A stretch of DNA of 60,188 bases. It comes from Promethearchaeota archaeon (GTDB taxonomy: Archaea > Asgardarchaeota > Lokiarchaeia > Sigyniarchaeales > SOKP01). Every line of letters begins with the position of its first letter. Position 1 is the first letter of the stretch. Location of the stretch: the NCBI GenBank assembly GCA_016839765.1, contig JAEOTP010000077.1, positions 1 to 60,188 on the forward strand. The letters are read 5' to 3'. Shown here piece after piece: positions 50,763-60,188 of this stretch. The translations under genes were made by a program, and so were the position numbers. The notes under the pieces were generated by a model. It was not told where the DNA came from. It saw only the letters and a program-made list of their open reading frames with translations, and searched no databases.

Positions 50763-51197
50763 TTACTTTCGTAAAGGGCCCAATTCCTTTATTTCACTAG
50801 TAAAATCAGTGATTACCTTGGCAAACCTTTTTCCTTCGGAAGCACTTACCCATTCTAACTTGACGCGTTTTTCATTAACACCTAACTGCTTTATAATTAT
50901 GTTATACAACCTTTCAAAACGGTCTCTTGTATATTCATTTCCAGAGATGTAATGGCAATCACCAATATGGCATCCACTAATAAGAACACCATCAGCACGA
51001 TTTTTTAAAGCCCTTAGGACAAAAGCAGGATCCACTCTTCCAGAGCACATAACTCTTATTATTCTAACATTTGGTGGATATTGGAATCTAGAAACTCCTG
51101 CTAAATCAGCCCCAGCATAACTACACCAATTACAACAAAAAACCAAAATATAGGGCTCAAAATCTTCCTTCTCAACTTGTGATACTGCTTTTGTCAT
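50763..51197 (-). CDS. mvhD: MvhD-like Fe-S subunit (cysteine form)
   Basis: 144 residues of the MvhD/HdrA-associated [2Fe-2S] family, which carries electrons from a hydrogenase or formate dehydrogenase to HdrA. Seen: FCCNWCSYAGADLAG (about 20-35), RVMCSGRVDPAFVL, and LISGCHIGDCHYISGN near 78-92. All ligand positions are cysteine. It lies 1 nt downstream of the large HdrA gene. It is the cysteine counterpart of the UGA-containing copy at 57991-58425 and nearly the same length. Confidence 0.92.
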   Translation of the reverse strand: MTKAVSQVEKEDFEPYILVFCCNWCSYAGADLAGVSRFQYPPNVRIIRVMCSGRVDPAFVLRALKNRADGVLISGCHIGDCHYISGNEYTRDRFERLYNIIIKQLGVNEKRVKLEWVSASEGKRFAKVITDFTSEIKELGPLRK

Positions 51198-51198
51198 T

Positions 51199-54100
51199 TT
51201 ATAATTCCTCTAACGATTTAGTTTTCTCTAGCAAATATGAATCTATCATCACACCTATTTGGTCAAAATCATAATGCTTTACAGATATTGCACCGACTGG
51301 ACAGGTGGCAGCGCAAGTCCCACAACCTTTGCATAATGCCGAATTTATATATGATTGCTTTATATTCAAATCCAAATCTTCAAATTCCATTTTAGTATCC
51401 AAAAGCTCAATAGCATTATAAGGACAAGTTTCTACACATTTTCCACATCCAATACATTTATCTGGATTAACTTCAGATATTAAACCGGAAGTCTTAATCT
51501 GTTTTGCGCTTAAAAATCGACTAGCTCTACCAGCTGCACCACTTGCTTGTGAAATTGAATCCTGAATATTTTTCGGCCATTGGGCGCATCCACACAAGAA
51601 GATGCCATCAGTTGCAAAATCTAAAGGTCTTAATTTGACATGCGCTTCCAAGAAAAAACCGTTTTTGTCTATTGGTACTTTTAACATTTTTGCTAATTCT
51701 TCTAAATTATCTGCTGGAATCATTGGAGTTGATAATATTATTAAATCGGTTTGAAATTCTATTTCCTCTTGAAGATTCGTGTCAAAAACCTTTATTTCGT
51801 AATTTTCTCTGGCTCCCCTTTTTCTAGTAATTTCTGGTATATTAGTTAAATCATATCTCAAAAAAATTGCATCTTTTCTTCTTTGGCGATAATAATCTTC
51901 GAACTCCTTCTTAGCCATTTGCAAATCTCTATATAATACCGTAATTTCAAGTTCAGGCTTGATTTCTTTAAGTATATTAATATTCTTAATTGCTGTTGCA
52001 CAACAAATATTTGAGCAATAGGTAATCCCTTCTTTTTGTCTTGAATTCACACACAAAATGGTAGTTATTCGATTTATATTTTTTAACCATGCACCATTTT
52101 GATCTTTTAATTTTTGTTCTAGTTCTAGTTGAGTTATGACATTTTGATTTTTACCGTTATATTGGAATAAACCATTTGGTTTTAATTCCTTCCCTCCAGT
52201 AGCAACTATTATTGTACCAACTTTAAAATCATGAATTACTTTTTCTTTATCGCCTACAGCAATATCATAATTTCCTATGTAACCCTTAATATTCTCAAGT
52301 TTAGATTCTAAGAAAATTTTGATATTTTTATTCTTTTTTACTTTTTCAATTATTTCATTTAGAAAAATTGATCCTTTTTCTTGAATTGGAGATAGAATGT
52401 TAAGATAATTTAGAATACCTCCTAATTTATTCTCTGTTTCTACGAGGTATGTTTCAAATCCTTGTTCTGCGATGTTTAGCGCGGCACTCATTCCTGCAAC
52501 CCCTCCACCAATGACTAATGCTGAGGGAATAATATTAAGGGTTTCTTCTTTTTGTGGCTTTAAGAGTCTGGCTTTCGCTACAGCCATTTTTACAAGGTCT
52601 ATAGATTTTTCGGTAGCTGCTTCCCTCTCTGTCATATGAACCCAAGAACATTGATCTCGAATATTAACCATTTCAAAAAGATATTTGTTTAATCCTGCCT
52701 CTTGACAAGTAACCTGAAACAAGGTTTCATGTGTTCTAGGAGTGCACGAAGCTACTATGAACCTATTTAAATCATTTTCTTTAATAACTTCCTTTATTCT
52801 TTCCTGAGAATCACTAGAACATGAATATAAATTTGCTTCACAGTGAACTACATTTGGTAATTTTTTAATTTCTTCAACAACGTCTGGAACATCTACATAT
52901 TTTCCAATATTAATCCCACAATGACAAATTAAAACTCCAATTCTCGATTCTTCAGATGTTTTTACTTCCTTTTCTGGTTCTTCAAACTCCTTTTCTTTGA
53001 TCTGGGTAAATTTAACTGAGTTTAATAATGTTGCAACTTGTGATGCTACACCACTCGCATCTGCTACAGTCTCAGGGATATCCATTGGACCTTGACAAAA
53101 ACCGCATAAAAATATACCATCTTTTGAAGATTGTAATTTATTAAAGTAAGAACGTTCCTTGAAAAAATTATATTGATCAAGTTCAATCCCTAAAATCTCT
53201 GCTAATTCGTTTGTGCCTCTTGATGCTACTAAGGGTGATGCTAATACTACTAAATTTGCTTTAAAATCTTTAAATTCTCCAGTTTTTAAATCCTCATAAT
53301 GTATAAGTAAATCATTAGTTTCAGGATCTTCCCTAATTTGACTGATCTTCGTTTGGTAGTATTTTACTCCATATTCTTGCTGAGCCCGCTGAGTGAATTC
53401 ATAAAAATTCTTACCATAAGCTCTAATATCGTGTCTAAATACATAGCATTCTGATTTCTCGGAATGTTCTTTTGTTATAATTGCTTCTTTTGCTGTATAT
53501 GTACAACATACACTTGAACAATACGGTACTCCCTCATGTAAATCTCTTGAACCAGCACATTGAATAAAAGCAATTTTTTCAGGTTCTTCATGATCACTTG
53601 GTCTTAAGACATGTCCCCCGAAAGGTCCTGAAGCACATAAAATTCTCTCATATTCAAGAGCACTTACTACATTTTCATATTGGTACCCCCATCTTAAAGA
53701 TAATTTTTCAGCAGGCATCTCAAAACCAGTTGCTACTACAATAGCTCCTATATTGAGTTGAATATCTTGAGGTTTTTGTTCATAATCAATTGCTTCAGCT
53801 TCACAAACTTTTTCACAAACTCCACATACTCCTTTTGTTAATTTCAAACACAACTTAGGATCAATTAAATAGACGGGAGGGACTGCTTGAGGGAAGGGTA
53901 TATAAATGGATTTTCTTTTCCCTAGATTCATATCAAATAAGTTTGGAACTTCAATTTTTGGGCATTTTGTAGCACAATCTCCACAGCCTTTGCATTTTGT
54001 TTCATCAATATAGCGTGGCTTTTTAAGAATTGTGATAGTAAAATCTCCTGCCGCTCCAGTAATTTCTTTAACTTCGTGATAAGTTAATAATTCAATATTA

Positions 54101-54306
54101 GGATTTCTAAAAACCTCGACCATTTTAGGTGCGAGAATACATAAACTGCAATCATTTGTAGGGAATGTCTTATCAAGTTGAGCCATTCGGCCTCCAATTG
54201 AGGGAGTCCTTTCAACTAAAAATACTTTATAACCTAATTCGGTCAAATCTAAAGAACATTGGATACCAGCAATTCCTCCACCAATTACTAATACAGATCC
54301 TTCCAT
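51199..54306 (-). CDS. hdrA: Double-length HdrA-like protein (cysteine form)
   Basis: 1035 residues, about 1.5 times a normal HdrA. Residues 1-440 are an HdrA core without the usual N-terminal domain: GGGIAGIQCSLDL (FAD), FPTNDCSLCILAPKM, CKGCGDCATKCP and a second Cys-rich site (CGVCEKVC). Around 460 a typical HdrA N terminus starts (GVLICHCGINIGKYVDVP). A second FAD domain (VIGGGVAGMSAALNIAEQG, near 595) lacks the NDCSLC loop. The end carries two [4Fe-4S] motifs (CIGCGKCVETCP and CKGCGTCAATCP). So it is a fusion of two HdrA-type units, one degenerate at the FAD-proximal cluster. HdrA is the bifurcating flavoprotein of heterodisulfide reductase. Overlaps the HdrCB gene by 1 nt (TAATG). Confidence 0.92.
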   Translation of the reverse strand: MEGSVLVIGGGIAGIQCSLDLTELGYKVFLVERTPSIGGRMAQLDKTFPTNDCSLCILAPKMVEVFRNPNIELLTYHEVKEITGAAGDFTITILKKPRYIDETKCKGCGDCATKCPKIEVPNLFDMNLGKRKSIYIPFPQAVPPVYLIDPKLCLKLTKGVCGVCEKVCEAEAIDYEQKPQDIQLNIGAIVVATGFEMPAEKLSLRWGYQYENVVSALEYERILCASGPFGGHVLRPSDHEEPEKIAFIQCAGSRDLHEGVPYCSSVCCTYTAKEAIITKEHSEKSECYVFRHDIRAYGKNFYEFTQRAQQEYGVKYYQTKISQIREDPETNDLLIHYEDLKTGEFKDFKANLVVLASPLVASRGTNELAEILGIELDQYNFFKERSYFNKLQSSKDGIFLCGFCQGPMDIPETVADASGVASQVATLLNSVKFTQIKEKEFEEPEKEVKTSEESRIGVLICHCGINIGKYVDVPDVVEEIKKLPNVVHCEANLYSCSSDSQERIKEVIKENDLNRFIVASCTPRTHETLFQVTCQEAGLNKYLFEMVNIRDQCSWVHMTEREAATEKSIDLVKMAVAKARLLKPQKEETLNIIPSALVIGGGVAGMSAALNIAEQGFETYLVETENKLGGILNYLNILSPIQEKGSIFLNEIIEKVKKNKNIKIFLESKLENIKGYIGNYDIAVGDKEKVIHDFKVGTIIVATGGKELKPNGLFQYNGKNQNVITQLELEQKLKDQNGAWLKNINRITTILCVNSRQKEGITYCSNICCATAIKNINILKEIKPELEITVLYRDLQMAKKEFEDYYRQRRKDAIFLRYDLTNIPEITRKRGARENYEIKVFDTNLQEEIEFQTDLIILSTPMIPADNLEELAKMLKVPIDKNGFFLEAHVKLRPLDFATDGIFLCGCAQWPKNIQDSISQASGAAGRASRFLSAKQIKTSGLISEVNPDKCIGCGKCVETCPYNAIELLDTKMEFEDLDLNIKQSYINSALCKGCGTCAATCPVGAISVKHYDFDQIGVMIDSYLLEKTKSLEEL

Positions 54307-55586
54307 TATGATTTAACTTCTCCATTATTTTCTGAATCAATTACATGAATTAAATTTACTAAAAACTCAGAAAAATCTTTAATTTCTATAGAAGATAAAT
54401 CGTCATAATCCTTTTGAAGGCACGAGAGGTGCATAATACATTTTGGACACGATGTAACCAAAGTTGTACCTGCTTCTTTAGCTTCTAAAAGACGACTATA
54501 TCTTAGAGCTTTGGATCGCGTATTACAATTCATCCATGAACTAACACCGCAACATAATGCATTCTCTTTATTGTGTGTCATTTCTTTGAAAGAATAACCT
54601 AATCCCTCTAAAATGTTAAAAATTTCCCTTAATTTTTCTAAAAGGTTATTAGATTTTGGTAAAAATCTGCTCAACCTGCAAGGATCGTGATAAGTAAACT
54701 GAATATTAATATCGCTTTCATCTGGAGCTTTTAACTCTACTTTGCCTTGTTTTAACTTTTCATATACGTACTCAATTATATGTTTCACTTCAAATTTTTT
54801 ATCAAAATCTTCAAATAGTTTTGGATACTCCACTTTAAAAGTCCTATAACCTTCTGCGCAAGATGTAATAATTGTTGAAACGCTGGACTTTTCAAATAAG
54901 TCATAATTTTTCTTTGCTAATTTGATAAAAGCCTCAAAATTCCCTAATCCCCAGTATAAGTCGTGTCCACAACAGACCTCATCTTTAAGAACAACTATTG
55001 GACGATTCTCAATTTGACACATTATTTTAAGTGAGCTTATGGGAATTGGATCTACTTCTTGGAATTCAAATTTAAAATATGGTATGCAACCTACGAAATA
55101 TAGAATATCCCCTTTATCTGAAATTTTACATTCTTTTGGGACCCAATCAAGATTTTTATTCGGTTGGATATAAGGCTCGCTCAATATTTCTGATATAGTA
55201 GTATAAATACCTTTATGTGCAACGAATTGCTCTGGGTTTTGTTTATAATAATTTTTCATTTTATATTTTGCATTTCTTACAATATCAGCAAAATTTATAT
55301 CTTCGGGGCAATTTTGAAGGCAGCTATTGCATGTTAAACAATCCCATAAAACCCCACTACTGATTACTTTATCTTCAGACCCTTCTAATATTCTTTGAAT
55401 AATTACGCTAGGTACAAAACTTTGAACTTTACTAAGTTGGCATACGCCGCTACAACGAACACATTGATAACATTTACTCAATAGTTTTCTTAAATTTGGT
55501 TCGTAAATCTTGTCTAGATATAACTCTGAATCCTCTATGGATTGTTCAGAATTATCTTTTTGATTGATTTCTGTTATAAGCTTCAC
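54306..55586 (-). CDS. HdrC-HdrB fusion (HdrD-like) CCG-domain protein
   Basis: 426 residues. The N-terminal part is HdrC-like with two [4Fe-4S] motifs: CYQCVRCSGVC (near 41) and CLTCNSCLQNCP (near 84). The C-terminal part is HdrB-like with two CCG domains: FVGCIPYF...EVCCGHD and HDPCRLSRF...ALCCGVSSW...CPKC. These hold the noncubane clusters that reduce disulfides. The fused order is that of HdrD. It is the first gene of the leftward set. What disulfide it reduces in an organism without methanogenesis is unknown. Confidence 0.9.
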   Translation of the reverse strand: MKLITEINQKDNSEQSIEDSELYLDKIYEPNLRKLLSKCYQCVRCSGVCQLSKVQSFVPSVIIQRILEGSEDKVISSGVLWDCLTCNSCLQNCPEDINFADIVRNAKYKMKNYYKQNPEQFVAHKGIYTTISEILSEPYIQPNKNLDWVPKECKISDKGDILYFVGCIPYFKFEFQEVDPIPISSLKIMCQIENRPIVVLKDEVCCGHDLYWGLGNFEAFIKLAKKNYDLFEKSSVSTIITSCAEGYRTFKVEYPKLFEDFDKKFEVKHIIEYVYEKLKQGKVELKAPDESDINIQFTYHDPCRLSRFLPKSNNLLEKLREIFNILEGLGYSFKEMTHNKENALCCGVSSWMNCNTRSKALRYSRLLEAKEAGTTLVTSCPKCIMHLSCLQKDYDDLSSIEIKDFSEFLVNLIHVIDSENNGEVKS

Positions 55587-55971
55587 TAAAATATTTTAAT
55601 TCTTACTTCATATTATATTGAATCACTTTGAATATGATAAAAAGGGAATGAATTTATTTTTTCTGATTAGTTTTAATAATGGTAGTTCGGTATGAAAATA
55701 AATGTAATAAGCGCAGAGTTCTAGGGAAAATTTTAATATAGAGAGTACTGAGCTCTATTATTAAATATTTCTTTTCCATTGTTGTCATCATTAAAAAATT
55801 AAAAACCAATAGGAAAAATTGTAGTTTTAAGAGTTTTTCTTATTTAATATTGGAATTATATAGTCTAATCAGAAAGAATAAATTATTTCCTTTTTTTACT
55901 TAATCATTATATTTAAATCGTTAAATTTAAAACCAAATAAATCAAGGTGAAAGAATACAAGGGTGACATAA
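55587..55971 (+). promoter_or_regulatory. Divergent promoter region between the two hdr sets
   Basis: 385 bp separate the leftward cysteine hdr genes from the rightward UGA-containing ones. For the rightward set TTATATTTAAAT at 55906-55917 is a TATA candidate, giving a leader of about 35 nt with GGGTGA (55961-55966) before the ATG at 55972. A near-central palindrome ATAGAG-(9 nt)-CTCTAT lies at 55738-55758 and could be an operator that switches between the two sets. No gene fits in this stretch. Confidence 0.45.
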
Positions 55972-57969
55972 ATGTCTGATAAGCAGACCATTGTTAGAAT
56001 AGGCGTTTATGTATGCAGGTGAGGAGTAAATATTGGAGCTACGGTAGATTGTGATGCTGTGAAAGATGCTGTTGAACATCTCTCAAATGTCGCAATTACT
56101 AGAGTAAATGACTTTACTTGTAGTGATCCTGGACAGAAAATCATCAAAAATGATATTTTAGAGTTAGATTTAAATCGCATTGTTGTTGCTGCTTGTACTC
56201 CAAAAATTCATGAATCCACTTATCGTGCTGTCTTAATTGAAGCTGGATTAAGCCCTTATTATTTTCAGATGGTTAATTTACGTGAACATTGTTCATTTGT
56301 ACACGGAGATGACAAGAGAGGTGCCACTGAAAAGGCGATAAGACTAGTTATAGCAGGAATAAACCGTGTTCGTGAGTTAGAGAGTATTCCCCGGAAAGTT
56401 ATACCAGTAGAGAGGGCAGCTTTAGTAATTGGTGCTGGAATTGCTGGAATGAATGCTGCGTTAGATTTAGCAAACCAGGGAATAAATGTTTATTTAGTTG
56501 AAAAAGAACCTACTATTGGTGGAAAAATGGCACAATTAGATAGGATTTATCCAACGGATGATTGTGGAATATGAGTACTTGCTCCAATAATGGTTAATGC
56601 TTCGAAACAACCAAATATAAATTTATATACTTATAGCGATATCGTCGAATTTAGCGGAATTCCTGGTAATTATAAAGTTAAAATAAGAAAAAATCCTCGT
56701 TATATTGATGAAAGTAAGTGTACTGGTTGTGGCTTATGCACATCCAAATGTCCTATAAAAATACCCGATGAATTTAATAGAGGGATCGGTGATAGGTGTG
56801 CTGTTTACATTCCCTTCCCTCAAGCTGTACCAAAATATGCTGTAATTGACAAGTCTGTTTGTATTGACTGCAAAAACTGCCAAAGAATATGCCCAGCCGA
56901 AGCAGTTGATTTTGAACAAGAACCACAATATATTGATATAAATGTGGGAGCTGTAATAGTCGCTACAGGTTATGATGAATACCCAATTATCGAAACTAAT
57001 GAGTACAACTATGGATTATATCCTGATGTAATCACTCAAATAGAACTAGAACGGATGTTAAGTCCTATTGGTCCAACCGATGGTCATGTGTATAGAATTT
57101 CTAATGGAGAAATCCCAAATACGATTGTTATGATTCAATGTGTCGGTTCAAGATCAGTAAAAGAACTTCCCTATTGCTCTGGAGTGTGTTGCAATGTGGC
57201 TCTTAAAAATGCACAATTATTAAAGCAAGAGTATCCTGACATGGATGTTGTTTTGTTTTACATTGATATTAGGACAACAGATAAAGGAAACGAGGAATAT
57301 TATAGAAGAATAAGAGATACGGGGATTAGAATGATTCGAGGAAAAGTCGGAGAAGTATTGGAAGACCCTGAAACGAAAATGCTAAAAATTCGGGCATTTT
57401 CATCTTTAACAGGTGATATTATTAAACTTAACGCTGATTTAGTTGTATTGTCTACAGGTATGATACCTTCAAAAGGTACTATTGAAATTATAGACTTAAT
57501 GGGTTTAGCTAAAGGTCCAAATGGATTTTTAACTGAAATTCATGGATGTCTAAGCCCTCAAGAAACGAATAATATGGGAATTTATATTTGTGGGGCTGCA
57601 GCTGGACCAAAGAACATCCCTTATTCCGTATCAACAGCTTTAGCGGCAGCAAGCAAGGCTGCTACTCTGCTATCGCACGATACTATAAACCAAGAATTAT
57701 TGATTGCAGAAGTGAAAGAAGAACTTTGTATGGGATGCCATAGATGTGAAAAATTGTGTTATTATGAAGCAATAAAAGTAGGTGAAAACAATATTGCAAT
57801 TGTAGATGATTTAAAATGCAAAGGTTGTGGCGTGTGCGCTACATCGTGTCCCGCGAGAGCGATTGACCTAAAATACTATAGAGACAAACAATTCATCGAA
57901 GAAATTAAAGGAATCAGTAGTAGCGAAATTGAATCCATCCAAGAAGCACCAAAAATTGAGGAAGAGTAA
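55972..57969 (+). CDS. hdrA: HdrA with two UGA-encoded selenocysteines
   Basis: 665 residues if UGA at codons 17 and 201 is read through. Codon 17 gives VCR-U-GVNIG, where the cysteine copy in this window has ICHCGINIG. Codon 201 gives YPTDDCGI-U-VLAP, where the other has FPTNDCSLCILAP. The frame is continuous and fully HdrA-like on both sides: FAD motif VIGAGIAGMNAALDL near 150, CTGCGLCTSKCP, CIDCKNCQRICP, and C-terminal CMGCHRCEKLC and CKGCGVCATSCP. Length is that of standard HdrA. UGA is a normal stop elsewhere here, and selenocysteine in HdrA near the FAD-proximal cluster is known in methanogens. Read as ordinary stops, it would be seen as three broken pieces. Confidence 0.92.
56020..56022 (+). 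other. UGA codon read as selenocysteine, HdrA residue 17
   Basis: TGA in frame between TGC AGG and GGA GTA AAT ATT GGA. The matching residue is cysteine in the HdrA of the leftward set (CHCGINIG). Confidence 0.88.
56572..56574 (+). other. UGA codon read as selenocysteine, HdrA residue 201
   Basis: TGA in frame within DDCGI-U-VLAPIM. It corresponds to the second Cys of the NDCSLC motif, a ligand region of the cluster next to FAD. Confidence 0.9.
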
Positions 57970-57990
57970 ATAATTTAGAGGTTAATTCAT

Positions 57991-58425
57991 ATGGTTGATT
58001 CAGAAAATAAGAATTTTAGAAAAATTATTGCTTTTGGATGCGATAAATGAGGTTATTCTGCTGCGGATTTAACTGGAACTACGAGAAAAACATACTCAAC
58101 TGATTTTCACTTAATTCGAGTTAGATGTACAGGAAGAGTTGGTATTCATTTAATTATGGAATGTTTTTTGAATGGTGCTGATGGAGTAGCTATTATATCA
58201 TGAAAAGAAGGAGAATGTGAATATGGTAGTGGTAACCTTAATACCTATGAGCATATTAAGCTCTTGAAACGGTTATTTAAACATCTAGGGATTTCCGAAA
58301 ACAGGATTCAACAATATTTCTGTTCAGCAGCAGAGGTGGAAAAATTCATCCAATCAGTAGAAGACATAACAACCAAAATTTATGAACTCCCACCTATACC
58401 TAAACAAAAACTTAATCCGAAGTAG
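57991..58425 (+). CDS. mvhD: MvhD/VhuD-like Fe-S subunit with two UGA-encoded selenocysteines
   Basis: 144 residues if UGA at codons 20 and 71 is read through, the same length as the cysteine copy at 50.8 kb. Alignment with it: FGCDK-U-GYSAADLTG against FCCNWCSYAGADLAG; RVRCTGRVGIHLIMECF against RVMCSGRVDPAFVLRAL; IIS-U-KEGECEYGSGN against LISGCHIGDCHYISGN. Both UGAs replace cysteine ligands of the electron-transfer cluster. It starts 21 nt after the hdrA stop and ends with TAG. It accepts electrons from a hydrogenase or formate dehydrogenase partner and passes them to HdrA. Conventional gene calling leaves this stretch empty. Confidence 0.92.
58048..58050 (+). other. UGA codon read as selenocysteine, MvhD residue 20
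   Basis: TGA in frame in GCDK-U-GYSAADL, replacing the third Cys of CCNWC in the cysteine paralog. Confidence 0.9.
58201..58203 (+). other. UGA codon read as selenocysteine, MvhD residue 71
   Basis: TGA in frame in IIS-U-KEGEC, at the place of the first Cys of GCHIGDC in the cysteine paralog. Confidence 0.88.
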
Positions 58426-58485
58426 GATGATCCTACCAAAAAAATTATAGTTGGGAGGAAACTAACTCATAGCCTGAGCTTTCGG
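58417..58485 (+). promoter_or_regulatory. Candidate SECIS element in the mvhD 3' region
   Basis: A foldable region begins at the mvhD stop codon. An outer helix CCGAAG (58417-58422) can pair with CTTTCGG (58479-58485). An inner helix TCCTACCA (58431-58438) can pair with TGGGAGGA (58452-58459) with one A-G mismatch, closing an A-rich loop (58439-58451). ATGA (58427-58430) sits directly before the inner helix, as in eukaryotic-type SECIS elements, but I do not see the matching GA on the other strand. A 15-nt palindrome GTAGGATGATCCTAC (58422-58436) offers a competing fold. As hdrA has only 21 nt before mvhD, one element here would have to serve both genes. Confidence 0.35.
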
Positions 58486-58520
58486 AATTAAAAATTAGAT
58501 TAATTATTAATATTATAAAG

Positions 58521-60014
58521 ATGGAATCAAAAGGAACTATTTCATGGAACTTTTTAAAGGATATAGCAGATACTTTAGATTCATATAGGATACGCCTCTT
58601 AATAGATGCTAAAAATGAAATTATTAGTTCTGCTATTTATGATGAAGAACAATATTATCAAATACTTCTTCAGATGATTGACGTAGAAAGAATGAAATAT
58701 TCCCTATTTAATTATTTAAATACCGAAGAAAATCACAATTTTAAATCCCTAAAACAATTTTCTAAACAAAATTCAATTGATATTAAAAAAACTCTAAGCT
58801 TTTTAGAGTTATTGAGAAATGAGAGACTAATCAAGGTAGAATATATTCATAACAATAATGATACTACTGAAGGAAATTCTAGCGATTTAACCATTAAGGA
58901 TTTATCAATTAGAAGTTTACAACTAATTCCTTCTGAAGTTAAATCTATCTACGAACCAGTAAAAGTTGTTTATGAGACTAACAATTGTTCTGGGTGTGGA
59001 TTGTGTGCTGGTATCTGTCCAGTTAATTGTATAAATATCTATAATGGGTTTGGAAAACTTGATGAAGATAAATGTATAAGATGCGGATTATGTTATTATT
59101 TTTGCCCAAGGACCTACTTACCTGTAAATTTATTAAATATGACCCAAAAAGATACTTCTAAATTAGAAAATTTTCCTAAAATAGGTTATTACCTAGAGGT
59201 ATATTCGGCTAGATCTAAAATAAAGGAAATCTCTAAAGTATGTCAAGATGGTGGAATTTCAAGTACGTGTCTCTATTTTTTGTTTGAAAGAAATGAGATA
59301 GATATTGCATTGGGAGCAAAAATGAGTCGAACTCCGTGGCGACCAGAACCAATATTAATTAAAAATAAAGAAGATATATTGAAAACTGCCGGAACAAAAT
59401 ATGTAAATAATCCTACTCTCAGCTTGTTAAATGAATTGAATAAAAATTCCAGCAAAATAGCTGTTGTTGGAGTTCCTTGTATGATGCAAGCTTTATTAAA
59501 ATCAGAAATTTATAATATCGGAATCCCCTCATTAAATCAGGTAGAATATAGAATCGGTATTTTTTGCATGGAATCATTTTCTTATGAATCCCTATTAAAA
59601 ATCTGCGAAACTTTAAGTGTAGATATTAACAATGTCCGGAAAACTGATATTAATAAAGGTAAATTTTTTGTATATACTCATAAGGGAGAAGATTTATCAA
59701 TTCCAATTAAAGAAATATCTCATTTAGCAAGAGAAGATTGTGAGATTTGCTTTGATTTAACTTCTGAGTCGGCTGACATATCAATTGGTTCAATTGGAGC
59801 ACCATCAGGTTGGAATACTGTTATAGTACGAACACCAAAAGGAAAACAATTATTTGATGGATTGGTAAAAAATAATTTGATTGAATTTAAAAAGATTACA
59901 GAAGTTCAACCCGGATTACCAATGGTTGAAAAAATTGCCAATTCAAAGAGAAATAAGTGCTCTAAACATATCGCTAAAAAAGAAGGCGAAAACAAGAGAA
60001 CTCCTAATTATTAA
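58521..60014 (+). CDS. FrhB/FdhB-like F420 oxidoreductase with N-terminal extension
   Basis: 497 residues. Residues 1-150 are a helical, winged-helix-like extension (FNYLNTEENHNFKSLKQFSK, ISLELLRN-type helices) I do not recognise. Two [4Fe-4S] motifs follow: CSGCGLCAGICP and CIRCGLCYYFCP (about 155-200). Then comes the FrhB domain: VCQDGGISSTCLYFL, VVGVPCMMQAL and CFDLTSESADISIGSIG. FrhB-type subunits bind FAD and F420 and move electrons between F420H2 and iron-sulfur partners. It lies 95 nt after the UGA-containing mvhD on the same strand, pointing to an F420-coupled HdrA complex. CofC is 10 kb upstream. Confidence 0.85.
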   Translation: MESKGTISWNFLKDIADTLDSYRIRLLIDAKNEIISSAIYDEEQYYQILLQMIDVERMKYSLFNYLNTEENHNFKSLKQFSKQNSIDIKKTLSFLELLRNERLIKVEYIHNNNDTTEGNSSDLTIKDLSIRSLQLIPSEVKSIYEPVKVVYETNNCSGCGLCAGICPVNCINIYNGFGKLDEDKCIRCGLCYYFCPRTYLPVNLLNMTQKDTSKLENFPKIGYYLEVYSARSKIKEISKVCQDGGISSTCLYFLFERNEIDIALGAKMSRTPWRPEPILIKNKEDILKTAGTKYVNNPTLSLLNELNKNSSKIAVVGVPCMMQALLKSEIYNIGIPSLNQVEYRIGIFCMESFSYESLLKICETLSVDINNVRKTDINKGKFFVYTHKGEDLSIPIKEISHLAREDCEICFDLTSESADISIGSIGAPSGWNTVIVRTPKGKQLFDGLVKNNLIEFKKITEVQPGLPMVEKIANSKRNKCSKHIAKKEGENKRTPNY

Positions 60015-60128
60015 AAATATATGATATTTGAAATTATCTCGAAATCTTCTTTCTTCTATTCTAAACCATAAAATTAATATTAAATTTCACATTAAAAAGT
60101 ATATCATTAATATTTATTTGGAATTAAA

Positions 60129-60188
60129 ATGAGTTCTATATCTCCAATTAGACCCAAAAACTTTCGTGAAAAAGTATTTTTCAGAAAA
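60129..60188 (+). CDS. Start of a gene cut by the window edge
   Basis: An ATG at 60129 opens a frame of 20 codons (MSSISPIRPKNFREKVFFRK) that runs off the window without a stop. It follows the FrhB-like gene by 114 bp on the same strand. It is too short to identify; given the context it may be another electron-transfer subunit. Confidence 0.4.
   Translation, partial: MSSISPIRPKNFREKVFFRK

Follow-up and report, generated by a model that had tools for sequence, protein, structure and literature searches.

How are four in-frame UGA codons, spread over two neighboring cistrons, read as selenocysteine (Sec), and can one SECIS element serve all of them? This question is raised by an hdrA–mvhD pair in a 60,188-nucleotide stretch of DNA (the window), which is contig 59 of the 3.32 Mb genome that we searched; this source genome is lokiarchaeal, and its MvhD is 97% identical to a protein of a Candidatus Lokiarchaeota MAG. 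The hdrA gene (55972–57969, plus strand) contains UGA codons at 56020–56022 (residue 17) and 56572–56574 (residue 201), and mvhD/frhD (57991–58425, plus strand) contains two more at 58048–58050 (residue 20) and 58201–58203 (residue 71). The genes are separated by 21 nt, hdrA ending at 57969 and mvhD starting at 57991, so that the reading in the initial annotation of a short spacer and of four UGA codons in two cistrons is borne out. Pfam assigns the FlpD domain (MvhD, 128.8 bits) to the MvhD product and FAD/4Fe-4S domains to the HdrA product. The same window holds a second hdrA–mvhD pair on the minus strand (50763–54306), without UGA and without element, with the cysteines of which three of the four UGA codons (HdrA 201, MvhD 20 and MvhD 71) align; the alignment does not extend to HdrA 17. 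Our answer, to which we assign a probability of roughly 0.88, is that 58417–58485 is a lokiarchaeal SECIS at the 3′ end of a presumed hdrA–mvhD transcript, composed of a stem P1, an AUGA_AA kink-turn-like P2 arm and a side hairpin P3, and that each of the four UGA codons, two in each cistron and the farthest 2.4 kb upstream, would be read as Sec with the help of this one element.

Architecture and conservation of the element

The element runs on the plus strand from CCGAA to UUCGG (58417–58485), and its parts are given here in the register of the orthologue alignment A1 described below. P1 pairs CCGAA (58417–58421) with UUCGG (58481–58485). The AUGA at 58427–58430 forms the 5′ side of the putative kink-turn-like core and lies opposite AA at 58460–58461, which is GA in other loci; an AUGA_[G/A]A core type is described for Asgard elements in the excerpted text of PMC11227280. 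P2 pairs 58432–58439 with 58451–58458, with a mismatch A58435·G58455 in the window copy, and is capped by an A-rich apical loop of 11 nt (58440–58450), the A-run itself covering 58438–58444 with its first two A paired in the model. The side hairpin P3 (58465–58479) pairs 58465–58469 with 58475–58479, A58465 and C58479 being unpaired in the window copy, and its loop, UAGCC, contains the conserved GC at 58472–58473. An ATGA just before an inner helix and an A-rich apical loop had been noted in this region before, and both are present as described. Two other pairings were considered and dropped: an AUGA_GA core with a displacement of P2 by two positions, for which the orthologues fix the register otherwise, and the pairing of the mvhD stop with CUA in the junction, which, judged by eye on A1, several relatives break. 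The stop codon in question, UAG at 58423–58425, falls inside the element, and a ribosome ending mvhD would have to disturb P1. Elsewhere the stop is placed upstream of the element or is supplied by the UGA within AUGA, and the overlap is therefore not essential.

Alignment A1 was made with MAFFT, on sequence only, from the 3′ regions of 47 loci, comprising the window and 46 same-family relatives and corresponding to the best-scoring 47 search rows, one genome each (50 loci were read, of which L012 corresponds to the window, and the paralogues L071–L073 were set aside from A1). The element is present at all 47 orthologous loci, and the region singled out in the initial annotation, 58417–58485, spans exactly one such element. 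AUG is invariant in the 47 rows, as are three apical-loop A, and the last A of AUGA is kept in 46. The exception, L066:2754–2824, has AUGC as its core and lies behind an mvhD with a single UGA; one UGA instead of two is found in the mvhD of five of the 47 loci (L033, L037, L038, L060 and L066). RNAalifold on A1 found P2, with all eight pairs changed on both sides somewhere, and did not pick P1 and P3 unaided; these were added by hand to the A1 structure before pairs were counted. With the structure thus completed, the paired cells amount to 93.7% and double changes are seen at 12 of the 18 pairs, none of 500 shuffles matches any of the five measures, and sliding the registers by 1–3 columns lowers pairing to 30–57%. 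P1 is nearly invariant in A1 and so is little informative there. Compensatory changes at all five of its pairs are seen in other loci, in alignment A2, which holds 66 elements and, having been fitted to the covariance model R1 and hence biased towards it, shows pairing in 96.8% of cells, with double changes at all 18 pairs and P3 paired in 93.3%. R1 was built from the 47 orthologous elements, the window's own included, so that the score of 58417–58485 against it (83 bits, E 1.1e-21) is partly by construction; the next-best R1 match in the 60 kb reaches 12.6 bits. Covariation among relatives, which the initial annotation had put forward as the check on its proposal, is strong.

Single-sequence folding is too weak to decide the matter, and the case for the element rests on its relatives. 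Of the two segments earlier put forward for folding, 58380–58520 gives a z of −1.73 and 57960–58000 shows no structure (z 0.94); the element folded alone (58417–58485) gives a z of −1.89, with 8 of 200 shuffles folding as well. The minimum-energy fold of the window copy (−15.9 kcal/mol) is a different fold with a hairpin GUAGG-AUGAU-CCUAC, the conserved structure being at −10.9 kcal/mol, and the mean pair probabilities in this copy are 0.90 for P1, 0.35 for P2 and 0.06 for P3. With its competing hairpin and the A·G mismatch (58435, 58455) in P2, the window copy is among the weaker folders: across the 47 single folds, the mean pair probability is above 0.5 in 37 for P1 and in 36 each for P2 and P3, and P2 reaches 0.93 in L013, the nearest relative. 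Because energy rules ignore kink-turns and proteins, we regard the competing fold of the window copy as a caveat and not as a refutation.

Association with UGA-containing genes and the Sec machinery

A search of the source genome with R1 returned nine matches, seven at E ≤ 2.5e-4 and the other two close to E = 1. The seven comprise the window; C43 and C35, each behind an hdrA and mvhD that both contain UGA; C33, behind hdrA alone; C46, behind a VhuU-like peptide (RCFDCULSCAAH); and C12 and C20, behind new candidates. Eleven mvhD homologues are encoded in this genome, and the element accompanies all three of the UGA type and none of the eight UGA-free ones, none of the nine R1 matches adjoining any of the latter. 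At E ≤ 0.001, R1 matches are found in 61 of 61 family genomes. Sixty further elements were fetched, 54 of which lie behind an ORF with in-frame UGA (10 of these 54 assignments were sorted by eye) and five of which are truncated by the end of a contig or a stretch of N (L132, L135, L138, L141 and L145); one, L181:121–185 (52.8 bits), lies behind the gene of a two-span membrane protein without internal UGA. A second model, R2, built from 66 elements, matches at E ≤ 1e-4 in 57 of 195 phylum genomes, namely 46 from the own family and 11 from outside it, and of the 138 R2-negative genomes none of the 20 listed is of the own family; the exact form of the element is mainly a family-level feature. R2 missed the SelD element of the source genome itself, which was seen by reading the 3′ end, and model-based element counts are for this reason lower bounds. 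Two elements about 470 nt apart occur at G036:C27.

The source genome encodes tRNA-Sec (C34:4361–4449, 62.1 bits against a gathering score of 47) and SepSecS (C34:4669–5826, 376.9 bits), the tRNA-Sec lying about 220 nt upstream of the SepSecS gene (G000:C34:4361–5826). A Sec-type SelD with one UGA, in the motif HGUSC, is found at C51 (185.4 bits). This locus (G000:C51:93524–94549; L245, L251) carries a type II-like element with a P3 of CCACC-UGCAA-GGUGG, and it is this element that the models miss.

Candidate selenoproteins behind the element were judged against the seven Asgard families of PMC11227280, as excerpted. From that list a protein some 150 residues long with the motif VGC-UGA-UGA-EK (G000:C20:10367–10825; L094, L203) is absent. 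A homologue of this tandem-UGA protein occurs in 48 of 61 family genomes, and 63 of 66 matches hold two or three UGA, the other three being fragments that end before the site; the UGA codons are adjacent in all 12 loci read, with the element downstream in 11 of them, all except L214, which is truncated by the contig edge. Its AlphaFold2 model has a pLDDT of 81, and a fold search against the PDB gave 593 matches at E ≤ 10 and none at E ≤ 0.001, with SAMP1 (4hro_B) at E 0.048 and a probability of 0.92, which for a beta-grasp fold is only a hint. Consecutive or adjacent Sec goes without mention in the excerpted part of a 2026 review (PMC13188914), and a literature search on selenoproteins with tandem UGA returned no relevant report. 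Another set is formed by short, single-span basic membrane proteins whose GGUxC-like tail immediately precedes the element, of which 12 were collected (G000:C12:3646–3895 (L092); L150, L153, L154, L156, L157, L162, L163, L168, L184, L185 and L186); the corresponding profile matches in 39 of 61 genomes at E ≤ 0.01, several of these matches being weak or without UGA. Elements are also preceded by one protein ending in CGUGY and by a pair of two-span proteins whose spans flank an Ala-Sec-Gly (L159, L173, L183), a set too small for a claim. Pfam returned nothing above cut-off for six candidate proteins.

Alternative readings of the structure and its reach

The ATGA, inner helix and A-rich apical loop of the initial annotation stand, and the conserved structure as a whole is, on the comparative evidence, a three-way junction of P1, P2 and P3 and not a single stem. 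Should P3 be an artefact of AU-rich sequence or of model fitting, the element would be an ordinary two-stem eukaryote-like SECIS, a reading with which several observations agree: RNAalifold picks neither P3 nor P1 on A1 unaided, the probability of P3 in the window copy is the low value given above, A2 was fitted to a model, and a review, in the part consulted, gives the Loki SECIS one apical loop (PMC9499178). A1, however, was aligned without structure, and yet P3 is paired there in 87.2% of cells with four of its five pairs doubly changed, and in most of the single folds it exceeds a mean probability of 0.5. The selD elements offer a separate view. For these, the alignment used sequence with no structural input (A6, 25 sequences from 30 loci, two of which are cut by contig ends, with the type I-like L265, L268 and L276 left out), and RNAalifold, given no structure, itself predicts P1, P2 and P3 in this alignment; with a ministem added by hand, 96.9% of cells are paired, P3 is paired in 97.6% and three of its five pairs are doubly changed, and of 500 shuffles 44 reach the number of further pair types and none reaches the other four measures. 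In the tandem-UGA family, moreover, the P3 stem is flipped from CCC/GGG to an AGGA/UCCU-like form with the loop GC kept in 10 of 11 rows, L211 being the row without P3 fit. As judged from these alignments, P3 covaries in the hdrA/mvhD elements and, independently, in the selD elements, and we hold the two-stem reading to be improbable.

The three-arm element could also be the SECIS of mvhD only, hdrA using another signal, in its 5′ leader or coding sequence, or unaided reading. Measured to AUGA, the mvhD codons are at 377 nt (58048) and 224 nt (58201) and the hdrA codons at 2405 nt (56020) and 1853 nt (56572), the latter two beyond the 70–1500 nt quoted for archaeal UGA–SECIS distances in the excerpted PMC9499178, a source that also reports a SECIS in the 5′ UTR of one methanogen gene. 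In line with such a signal, the hdrA leader (55852–55971) is conserved at 67–82% across 16 relatives when taken in 20-nt blocks, with a peak at 55872–55891; it is without SECIS model match, and its conservation, as a promoter or other signal, is unexplained. Against a second signal stands that no better SECIS was found in coding sequence or 5′ leader, the possibility on which the initial annotation had staked its proposal: with models run without filters over 55400–60188, a search that sees elements like the models' own, the next match scores 10.1 bits against 83, and no Rfam 15 SECIS family, which would detect elements like those modelled, is matched at E ≤ 10 over 55900–58700. That hdrA can be a target of the element is best supported by 14 loci, one of them in the source genome, in which a UGA-containing hdrA has the element right behind it with no mvhD between (G000:C33:17274–17342 (L091); L127–L131, L133, L134, L137, L139, L140 and L142–L144). 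The element lies 1–10 nt after the stop in 13 of these, and in L128 the frame enters it; about 120 nt past the element was fetched except for C33, and a further two hdrA ends are truncated where their contigs stop. At C33 the next long ORF after the element is not mvhD, and blastn matches hdrA through base 1963 and resumes at window 58408–58487, so that the locus reads as one that probably lost mvhD and kept its tail and SECIS; its P1 is CUGAA/UUCAG, a compensatory change. These loci, together with the lack of a better match elsewhere, support the earlier proposal of one element for both cistrons, and make an element restricted to mvhD unlikely. At C43 (L071) there are four UGA in hdrA and two in mvhD, and a single element was found, behind mvhD; if all were read, six Sec codons would depend on one SECIS.

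A structured element at a 3′ end may, finally, have nothing to do with Sec and act as a terminator or in some other 3′ UTR role, and not all elements are UGA-tied, the ORF at L181 lacking an internal UGA, which speaks against our main reading. The element nevertheless tracks UGA-type genes in the source genome (3/3 against 0/8), lies also behind the unrelated VhuU-like, SelD and Prx-like genes, and holds AUG and its three apical A invariant. The next gene, moreover, an FrhB/FdhB-like gene at 58521–60014 (PF04432, 144.7 bits), starts 35 nt downstream and by its closeness may share a transcript with the element. A function unrelated to Sec we therefore consider very improbable.

Comparison with known SECIS elements

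Asgard eSECIS-like elements of hdrA–frhD clusters are reportedly also treated in Mariotti et al. 2016. From eukaryotic SECIS types I and II, as excerpted from PMC11227280, the lokiarchaeal element shares AUGA, the kink-turn-like core, the apical-loop adenines and the 3′ UTR place. The likeness to eukaryotic elements proposed in the initial annotation holds for the AUGA and the A-rich loop and stops at the core: the window copy has AA on the 3′ side in place of the GA_GA quartet, with GA in some relatives, the Rfam search over 55900–58700 gave no SECIS family, and the side hairpin P3 is absent from the eukaryotic form. By analogy with the proposal for eukaryotes, a factor on the SECIS would bring EFSec and Sec-tRNA to the ribosome at the UGA, the core of P2 acting as a kink-turn-like site and P3, with its steady GC loop on a changing stem, as a second contact. 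According to the literature consulted in excerpt, no SBP2 is known in archaea and no SECIS-binding factor has been identified there; P3 as a second conserved arm could serve as an RNA bait in the search for such a factor and offers a clear mutational test.

The methanogen SECIS, in the excerpts available, likewise occupies the 3′ UTR, with one element serving two vhuD UGA codons and with hdrA and vhuD as neighbors. On inspection of A1 and A2, its GAA_A bulge with G-C clamps (eaSECIS) is not conserved here, and in Methanococcus maripaludis a SECIS of lokiarchaeal origin proved non-functional (PMC11881835, as excerpted), a point against our main reading.

The closest relative is the Asgard eSECIS-like type I element of PMC11227280 (Huang et al. 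2024), with which, in the excerpted text, the window copy shares the AUGA_[G/A]A core, the upper stem, the A-rich apical loop and the place behind frhD. For the published core GA_[G/A]A the window copy has AUGA (58427–58430) opposite AA (58460–58461) in the 47-locus register; for an upper stem of 7–15 bp with at most two mismatches, eight positions with one mismatch; for an apical loop of 8–20 nt, 11 nt (58440–58450); for a place from 30 nt upstream to 600 nt downstream, a start 8 nt ahead of the final nucleotide of the mvhD stop codon; and for an energy below −5 kcal/mol, −10.9 kcal/mol for the conserved fold, from which the minimum-energy fold at −15.9 differs. The same source describes one eukaryote-like SECIS common to hdrA and frhD in Asgard, and an Asgard SECIS has been argued, in the passages available, to link to the eukaryotic form. 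The kind of signal claimed in the initial annotation is thus supported and is already known from print for Asgard (PMC11227280, in excerpt), P3 and the hdrA-only loci being additions. The key-region model in that source consists of core, upper stem and apical loop, its main text (figures and supplements aside) makes no mention of a second hairpin, and none of the titles and abstract openings found on SECIS with a three-way junction or extra stem describes P3, which here is part of the conserved structure. The statement in the excerpted text that hdrA and frhD are always together has exceptions in the hdrA-only loci, which make the shared-element claim testable by comparison. As far as this literature goes, the side hairpin P3 with its GC loop and the hdrA-only loci appear to be new. 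At somewhat better than even odds, we propose that lokiarchaeal SECIS elements form a three-way-junction class in which a P2 kink-turn arm is joined by P3 as a second conserved arm with a GC loop, found with HdrA/MvhD, hdrA-only, VhuU-like, Prx-like, SelD and new families; that P3 may be the site of a factor substituting for SBP2; that one element may serve up to six UGA codons, as at C43; and that the covariance model, by finding lokiarchaeal candidates that seeding with known families would miss, exposes unlisted selenoproteins, including one with two adjacent Sec.
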